Origin: a virus
Reading direction: 5' to 3' (one strand)
DNA: 22,511 nt
Virus record (IMG/VR): IMGVR_UViG_3300009285_007571
Location: 1-22,511 of that record
Under the pieces are notes generated by a model. It did not search any database, was not told the origin of the DNA, and saw nothing but the letters and a program-made list of their open reading frames with translations. How positions within the stretch are numbered: the first letter of the stretch is position 1; each line of letters starts with the position of its first letter. A program made the position numbers and the translations under genes. This document shows, one piece after another, positions 1 to 757 of the stretch.

Positions 1-222
1 TAGCCGGAGCCGTCGCCGGAGCCGTCGCCGTAGCCGTAGCCGTAGCCGGAGCCGTAGCCGTAGCCGTCGCCGTCGCCGTCGCCGGAGCCGTCGCCGGAGC
101 CGTCGCTGTAGCCGTAGCCGTTGCCGGAGCCGTAGCCGTAGCCGTTGCCGGAGCCGTTGCCGGAGCCGTCGCCGTCGCCGTCGCCGTCGCCGTAGCCGGA
201 GCCGTAGCCGGAGCCGTTGCCG
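1..222. repeat. Hexanucleotide tandem repeat, 37 units
   Basis: Consecutive 6-bp units of the form NNGCCG on the plus strand (tagccg, gagccg, tcgccg, ttgccg), with one variant tcgctg at 103-108. The array reaches the left window edge, so the copy number is a minimum. It is the coding sequence of the Gly-X protein and a likely site of length variation or assembly collapse. Confidence 0.97.
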
Positions 223-239
223 GATCTTATGCTTTCCAT
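1..239 (-). CDS. (Gly-X)n low-complexity repeat protein, 3' end outside window
   Basis: An ATG at 239 opens a leftward frame that stays open to the window edge (at least 79 codons). After MESIRS the protein is an almost perfect Gly-X alternation with X = Tyr, Ser, Asp or Asn. The DNA is 37 tandem hexamers (1-222): by my count 12 encode Gly-Tyr, 10 Gly-Ser, 11 Gly-Asp and 4 Gly-Asn. Every codon ends in C; the only break is one Gly-to-Ser change near 105. The start lies inside the last codons of the upstream DUF6948-like gene (13-nt overlap), so translation is probably coupled. Uniform wobble bases mean the repeat could be held by DNA slippage alone, so selection on the protein is not proven. 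Function is unknown; a flexible, possibly surface-exposed or self-associating protein is inference. True length is unknown. Confidence 0.6.
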   Translation of the reverse strand, partial: MESIRSGNGSGYGSGYGDGDGDGDGSGNGSGNGYGYGSGNGYGYSDGSGDGSGDGDGDGYGYGSGYGYGYGDGSGDGSG

Positions 240-571
240 ATAGGCACCTTTTTGATGGAAAGACGTGCTCTCTCTGTACAGTTAAGTAGCTCGATTGCTT
301 GTATTAGCTTTACTTCGGACACTTCGCATGGAAACTTACAAGCATTTGGGTTTGAAAATCCTTCTTCAGCTGCTTGTGATAAACTAGCAGCGCCGCTCCA
401 ATACCATAGGCGACGTGCGTTTAATAGAATTACTTCTTGTCCGTTTTGGCTTTTAAGCCAGCCAGCGAAAACTCCCGCGTTTTGTGCTCGACAGATTATA
501 TAACGCATCCCTTCAGTTTTTTCTTTTCTCACGTATTCGACTTCGTTGATTTTGATCGTATCAGGTTCCAT
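227..571 (-). CDS. DUF6948-like phage protein
   Basis: 114 aa. I recognise the pattern of a conserved phage family (DUF6948, from memory): an AGVFAGWL segment at about residues 32-39, then LLNARRLWYWSGAASLSQ (about 49-66), then a NACKFPCEV segment and an ELLNCTERA segment near the C-terminus. Family function is unknown to me. The start at 571 is set by GGAGG at 576-580, part of the TGGAGGCTT box used by several leftward genes. The stop overlaps the ATG of the Gly-X repeat gene. A structured noncoding stretch of about 185 bp precedes it. The fold is probably small and globular; no signal peptide or membrane segment is visible. Confidence 0.8.
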   Translation of the reverse strand: MEPDTIKINEVEYVRKEKTEGMRYIICRAQNAGVFAGWLKSQNGQEVILLNARRLWYWSGAASLSQAAEEGFSNPNACKFPCEVSEVKLIQAIELLNCTERARLSIKKVPIWKA

Positions 572-757
572 AAAGCCTCCATTTTATGAAAGGATGATTC
601 CTTTCAGTACCATAGCCCCTTCGTGAGGAGCTTTGGTACCGCTGTGTGTGCCACTATGTCAGGAGTCTCTAATGTTTAGGCACCTTCCCCTGCTCGTCAC
701 TGCTGCGTAATCGCACGGACTGCTTCGTCGCCGGGCCAAGAACCCGGCTGACTTCAC
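572..757 (-). other. Structured leader between two leftward genes
   Basis: 186 bp without a gene. It holds three inverted repeats: 588-605 (7-bp stem, loop tgat), 607-639 (12 of 14 positions pair around a 5-nt loop) and 730-748 (6-bp GC stem, loop of 7). None is followed by a clear T-run in the leftward direction. The first two lie just upstream of the ribosome site of the DUF6948-like gene, so they could control its translation or protect a processed mRNA end. A 9-codon ORF (ATG at 613) overlaps the hairpins and is not credible alone. Confidence 0.5.

Follow-up and report, generated by a model that had tools for sequence, protein, structure and literature searches.

The window analyzed here is the complete record IMGVR_UViG_3300009285_007571, a virus contig of 22,511 bp in which terminase, portal, major head and endonuclease VII genes are present and which, as a whole, had no megablast match among cultured phages. 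Two overlapping genes on the minus strand occupy its left edge:

1-222, minus strand: hexamer array of the form GGC-NNC, 37 units with one Gly to Ser change (TRF and pattern search).
3-239, minus strand: Gly-X array gene, partial; a MESIRS leader followed by (G-[Y/D/S/N])n, about 37 hexamers.
245-250, minus strand: Shine-Dalgarno-like AAGGTG of the array gene, 5 nt before its ATG at 239 (read from the sequence).
227-571, minus strand: DUF6948 gene, 114 aa (PF22253, E = 1.3e-25); the array gene starts within it and shares its final 13 nt.
576-580, minus strand: Shine-Dalgarno sequence GGAGG of the DUF6948 gene (read from the sequence).

The array was the only one detected by TRF in the window (1-222, period 6, 37 copies), and the pattern GGCNNC x5 had 27 match sites in the record, every one of which fell within it. 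An earlier note on this DNA had described 37 hexamers with a single substitution and four X codons, all ending in C, and both TRF and codon reading confirmed this: X is encoded by TAC, GAC, TCC and AAC only, the lone exception at the Gly position is AGC (Ser), and the 36 units scored contained Tyr 11, Asp 11, Ser 10 and Asn 4 times. The near absence of decay, also claimed there, holds for the Gly codon and for the third base of X; the first and second bases of X are highly variable, and thus the array has not simply been homogenised. The minus-strand ORF (3-239) has its own ATG and Shine-Dalgarno sequence and continues off the end of the record, showing that the array of the window is truncated. 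A match of the array to the Pfam family TrAA12 was below the cut-off and compositional, and an assignment to collagen-like or RTX repeats was also rejected, as the period is 2 residues and neither a G-X-Y triplet nor a GGXGXDXXX nonapeptide is present.

The upstream gene clearly belongs to Pfam PF22253 (DUF6948), scoring 89.7 bits against a cut-off of 27, and this family was matched by 61 of 67 DUF6948 homologues. Pfam gives no function for it. The AlphaFold model of DUF6948 was confident (pLDDT 93). All 50 VIA-align matches listed were Sm/Lsm or Sm/Lsm-like entries, the best with a Z of 7.2 (2.2 Å, 60 residues), a value in the range below 8 that, according to the warning of the tool, may mean merely a common arrangement. 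The best Foldseek rows were all Sm proteins (best E 1e-3). At the sequence level, DUF6948 members had weak matches to Pfam SM-ATX, Hfq and LSM (E 0.015-0.16, 1-3 members each), hhalign comparison with small Hfq and archaeal Lsm alignments gave a probability of 0.5% or less, i.e., no significant relation, and a PDB sequence search yielded no match. Because Z was below 8 and no profile relation to either Hfq or archaeal Lsm emerged, we claim a fold resemblance only: DUF6948 is predicted to be a small beta-barrel with a fold closest to Sm/Lsm.

The association of the two genes was examined from both sides. A viral collection was scanned with a degenerate DNA pattern of twelve Gly-[Y/S/D/N/A/T] units, blind to the neighboring gene, and at least 120 array places were found. 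An HMM of DUF6948 grown from the window protein was run over the ORFs of these loci, and 90 copies of DUF6948 were listed. When arrays containing Tyr plus Ser, Asp or Asn and having an upstream flank of 450 nt or more were counted, DUF6948 was located directly upstream on the same strand in 69 of 86 such Tyr-mixed arrays among the matches listed, and several of the 17 misses were second or later arrays of one locus (L034, L056, L120 and L124). Non-Tyr arrays of the same scan served as an internal control: DUF6948 was upstream of just 2 of the 20 other listed arrays with a flank of at least 450 nt, which were mostly Gly-Ala, Gly-Ser or Gly-Thr only, and both of these were Ser/Asp arrays.

The second set was built from the DUF6948 sequence itself, with a 23-row alignment because the 67-row version was too divergent to search for loci. 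It comprised 80 viral loci, 59 bacterial or archaeal assembly loci and cultured-phage records, and 129 genes were left after dropping duplicates and loci short of downstream DNA (L013 and L160, which are one contig, were excluded from variant counts). An alternating-Gly ORF was found downstream of 125 of these 129 genes, with ten or more units in 118, and in 120 of the 125 it overlapped the DUF6948 stop codon. Control positions passed the alternating-Gly score in 14 of 1150 cases with a maximum of 10, whereas the median score behind DUF6948 was 27. As judged by this linkage and overlap, DUF6948 and the Gly-X array form the first and second genes of a conserved module carried by hundreds of phages, and the proposal of the earlier note that related phages should carry the repeat beside DUF6948 was borne out in both directions. 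Contig ends within 400 nt of DUF6948 cluster on its downstream side (28 versus 6 upstream), which explains why the window stops at the array.

Firm occurrences of the module were those in cultured phages of Pectobacterium, Iodobacter, Vibrio and Chlorobiaceae, in bacterial isolates (Prevotella sp. F0043, L272 and L273; Colidextribacter sp. OB.20, L222) and in a Monoglobus plasmid (L276). Assemblies named as hosts belong to many phyla, many of them being metagenome bins, where viral contigs can be misplaced. In Iodobacter phage phiPLPE (EU876853), the array ORF (L134, about 1172-1406) carries no annotation in GenBank. No description of DUF6948, of its near-obligate downstream Gly-X partner or of phage Gly-X motifs was found in the open literature, subscription journals and preprints being outside the scope of this search.

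A repeat of this kind can stay open in several frames, which makes an open frame weak evidence of coding. The reading frame was therefore judged by relatives, from the position of the array relative to ATGs no more than about 20 nt away from the stop codon of DUF6948. Such ATGs with an open path were in the Gly-X frame in 99 cases and in another frame in 7. Out-of-frame ATGs further upstream fell into the Gly-X frame in 94 cases and into the two remaining frames in 119 and 8. In one case (L034), DUF6948 and the array were naturally fused within one ORF. These comparisons of predicted starts show the Gly-X frame to be the coding frame.

Arrays anchored by DUF6948 were not selected by composition and could be used to analyze variation. 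Their mean diversity per hexamer position was 0, 0, 0.10, 0.45, 0.49 and 0.11, i.e., the two bases that determine X vary several-fold more than the others, and within an array the synonymous positions show almost no variation. Simple homogenisation, as suggested earlier, is an incomplete explanation, as it does not account for this difference between positions that change the amino acid and synonymous ones. Ser (34.5%), Tyr (27.4%), Asp (23.9%) and Asn (3.6%) dominated X, the one-step neighbors His, Cys, Ala and Thr accounted for about 1% each, and Tyr, Asp and Ser/Asn were all present in 103 of 108 arrays. The encoded chains are acidic and almost free of Lys and Arg (D+E 868 versus K+R 16). 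Ser was encoded by TCN in 1185 cases and by AGY in 32, as expected if it derived from TAY by one change. Synonymous codes differed between arrays (GGC, GGT, GGA or GGG for Gly; C- or T-ending X codons) and the residues were the same, so that the residue alphabet is conserved despite differing codons. Units followed one another in near-random order, 20 of 83 arrays contained block duplications, and the repeat period was 2 residues throughout. Tyr spacing was also random (237 YY neighbors observed, 238.4 expected).

This pattern bears on two rival explanations. One is a diversity-generating retroelement that mutates X codons of the NNC/NNT type. Variable first two bases and a fixed third base are in its favor; however, about 96% of X codons came from four of sixteen dinucleotides rather than from a broad NNY set (the search pattern sets part of this share, although the residue bias persisted in the DUF6948-anchored set), and no reverse transcriptase is annotated in the complete, fully annotated genome of phage Ymer. 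We regard this explanation as extremely improbable. The other is an element acting at the DNA or RNA level, such as a recombination hotspot or a translation attenuator, with an incidental peptide. GGC dominated in 97 of 112 arrays, AT-rich phages included, and the array extends over the stop codon of DUF6948, both of which would suit such an element. Nevertheless, it appears very unlikely, as arrays built on GGT, GGA or GGG and on T-ending codons encode the same residues and additional C-terminal domains are fused in frame behind some arrays.

One of these domains (~150 aa), which is conserved, followed the array in frame in about 25 phage or prophage ORFs, mostly from Bacteroidota and Clostridia assemblies, and contained invariant AH and WHHxLTGSCxxGR-type motifs (alignment A5). 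One copy is located as follows:

L245:6363-6812, plus strand: ~150-aa domain with the WHHxLTGSC motif.

Its model was confident (pLDDT 92), and neither a Pfam or NCBIfam family nor a convincing structural match was found for it. Tetrasphaera phage TJE1 has a stand-alone relative, orf51. In two loci, L060:398-739 and L096:13016-13357, the array was followed by another C-terminal domain (YWLxTIxxFA...), also with no family match. A protein encoded on the minus strand of L116 (3287-3833 in strand coordinates) combined DUF7666 with a Gly-X array and the first part of the FAHG/WHH-type domain, which links DUF7666 proteins to this type of array. One phage contig (L056:1680-2968) contained five tandem paralogous array genes, whose arrays differed and whose ends were identical (MGLKAFLKFG ... 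EPNLTSAGATVVEE).

Related phages revealed rapid change of the array. Ymer and Amona are 95% identical overall, and 1704 + 4057 nt (5.8 kb) around the array gene are without any difference; within this identical tract, the arrays were 222 nt in Ymer and 204 nt in Amona and were separated by 12 unit edits of about 30. Array genes of cultured Pectobacterium phages were 204, 222, 252, 258 and 270 nt long, all in frame, and length differences among seven related isolates were all multiples of 6. These isolate comparisons call for caution, as the published genomes of the Pectobacterium phages Ymer, Abuela, Amona and Koroua are metaSPAdes assemblies of short (NextSeq 300-cycle) reads (PMC11445585). 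Metagenome loci also had different arrays between identical or similar flanks; for example, the flanks of L141 and L142 were 90% identical and their arrays used different Gly codons. Thus, whole units turn over fast and in frame inside otherwise identical DNA. The earlier suggestions that this is a phage gene, that its length can change by 6 bp without a frameshift and that it can vary rapidly agree with the genes of these cultured isolates.

Such turnover raises the question of a neutral or selfish microsatellite, in which a slipping and expanding hexamer would be tolerated at the end of an operon. Unit-wise length change, the block duplications and the pile-up of contig ends at the array are compatible with it. 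However, in phages with many different hosts the array is tied to a single gene family, its start codon and frame are retained, and the same residues are produced from different codons, with the easily reached His, Cys, Ala and Thr near absent. This reading is already disfavored and we consider it highly improbable. Phase-variation contingency loci likewise have a short tandem repeat and rapid copy-number change, but the 6-bp unit holds the frame and allows no on/off switching, and unit order and X content change besides number.

The genes around the module are mainly those of recombination, replication and methylation (RecE, RecT, Sak4, ERF, Bet, methylases and primase), with one Acb2/Tad1-type anti-defence gene and only one tail family among the neighbors listed. 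In Ymer, the module is on the early strand together with SSB, Erf and exonuclease VIII, and a tail fibre gene lies between them on the other strand. The earlier idea that the polymer coats a surface finds no support in these neighbors, which are not virion genes in the main, and on the basis of the neighbors and the early-strand position in Ymer we favor an early intracellular role for the module over a virion coat.

A related proposal is a virion or adhesin component, in which a flexible Gly-rich segment of variable length is exposed on the particle. The adhesins of T-even phages (gp38) are Gly-rich and hypervariable, have hypervariable loops between poly-Gly motifs and are encoded in the tail-fibre operon. 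The array is also a Gly-rich, hypervariable phage protein, and in Ymer-genus phages a tail fibre gene adjoins DUF6948, although on the opposite strand. Unlike gp38, the array is outside the tail-fibre operon and has no hypervariable loops between poly-Gly motifs. Moreover, most arrays end the ORF without an anchoring domain (the tail is shorter than 20 aa in 147 of 182), and, given also the early-gene strand and its neighbors, we judge this proposal quite unlikely. A counter-defence decoy, in which the acidic polymer mimics nucleic acid or a defence target and an arms race drives the reshuffling, would fit the strong net acidity, the fast turnover in isolates and the early neighborhood with methylases and the Acb2/Tad1-type gene. 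Still, the chain contains as much Tyr and as much Ser as Asp and so is not a classic dense acidic mimic, and its alphabet is constant among phages whose hosts differ widely; an arms race would be expected to shift composition and not order alone. We consider the decoy unlikely.

Our preferred explanation assigns both products to one early process. Gene 1 (DUF6948) would encode a small beta-barrel that is Sm/Lsm-like by predicted fold, and gene 2, which normally starts inside the end of gene 1, would encode an acidic, presumably disordered Gly-[Tyr/Ser/Asp/Asn] polymer that is co-translated with the barrel. Units would be gained, lost and shuffled in 6-bp steps by slippage or recombination; their turnover would sweep out synonymous differences and selection would keep X mixed. 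We strongly infer that selection acts on composition (Gly alternation and the presence of Tyr, Asp and Ser/Asn) and not on unit order. The polymer may be a multivalent low-complexity chain that joins DUF6948 inside the cell in an assembly on nucleic acid of the phage or the host, early in infection, when recombination and replication take place. Such a pair would resemble a nucleic-acid chaperone whose disordered acidic tail has become detached, or a condensate former of the sticker-spacer type. Joint action of the chain and the modeled barrel on nucleic acid is what we infer from these features, and the natural DUF6948-array fusion fits it. Self-association of the polymer, also suggested earlier, is plausible.

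Both comparisons have limits. The module is similar to Hfq/Sm/Lsm chaperones in having a predicted small barrel of Sm topology with an acidic disordered chain attached or nearby, and Hfq is autoregulated by its acidic C-terminal domains (PMC5606850). However, the module lacks sequence-profile similarity to these proteins, and its polymer is usually a separate overlapping gene, has a strict two-residue period and is hypervariable. As in FUS-type low-complexity domains, the array is rich in Gly, Ser and Tyr and its composition is kept as order changes. It differs from them in its rigid Gly alternation and random Tyr spacing; even aromatic spacing has been described for some phase-separating domains.

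Taken as a whole, the explanation of a module with a composition-held, order-free polymer and an early nucleic-acid assembly with an Sm-like barrel is offered tentatively, with chances somewhat short of even. It is possible, if rather doubtful, that the module represents an undescribed class of phage system: a near-universal gene pair in which composition is held while length and order are rewritten, and which builds an early nucleic-acid assembly or blocks one of the host. Annotation pipelines call the array gene hypothetical or miss it and low-complexity filters mask it in searches, yet it is half of a conserved module that spans phages of many bacterial groups. The array also offers a clean natural test of whether selection on disordered proteins acts at the level of composition or of sequence, because X varies against nearly fixed synonymous positions and the array changes inside 5.8 kb of identical DNA; cultured phages with the module make direct testing possible.
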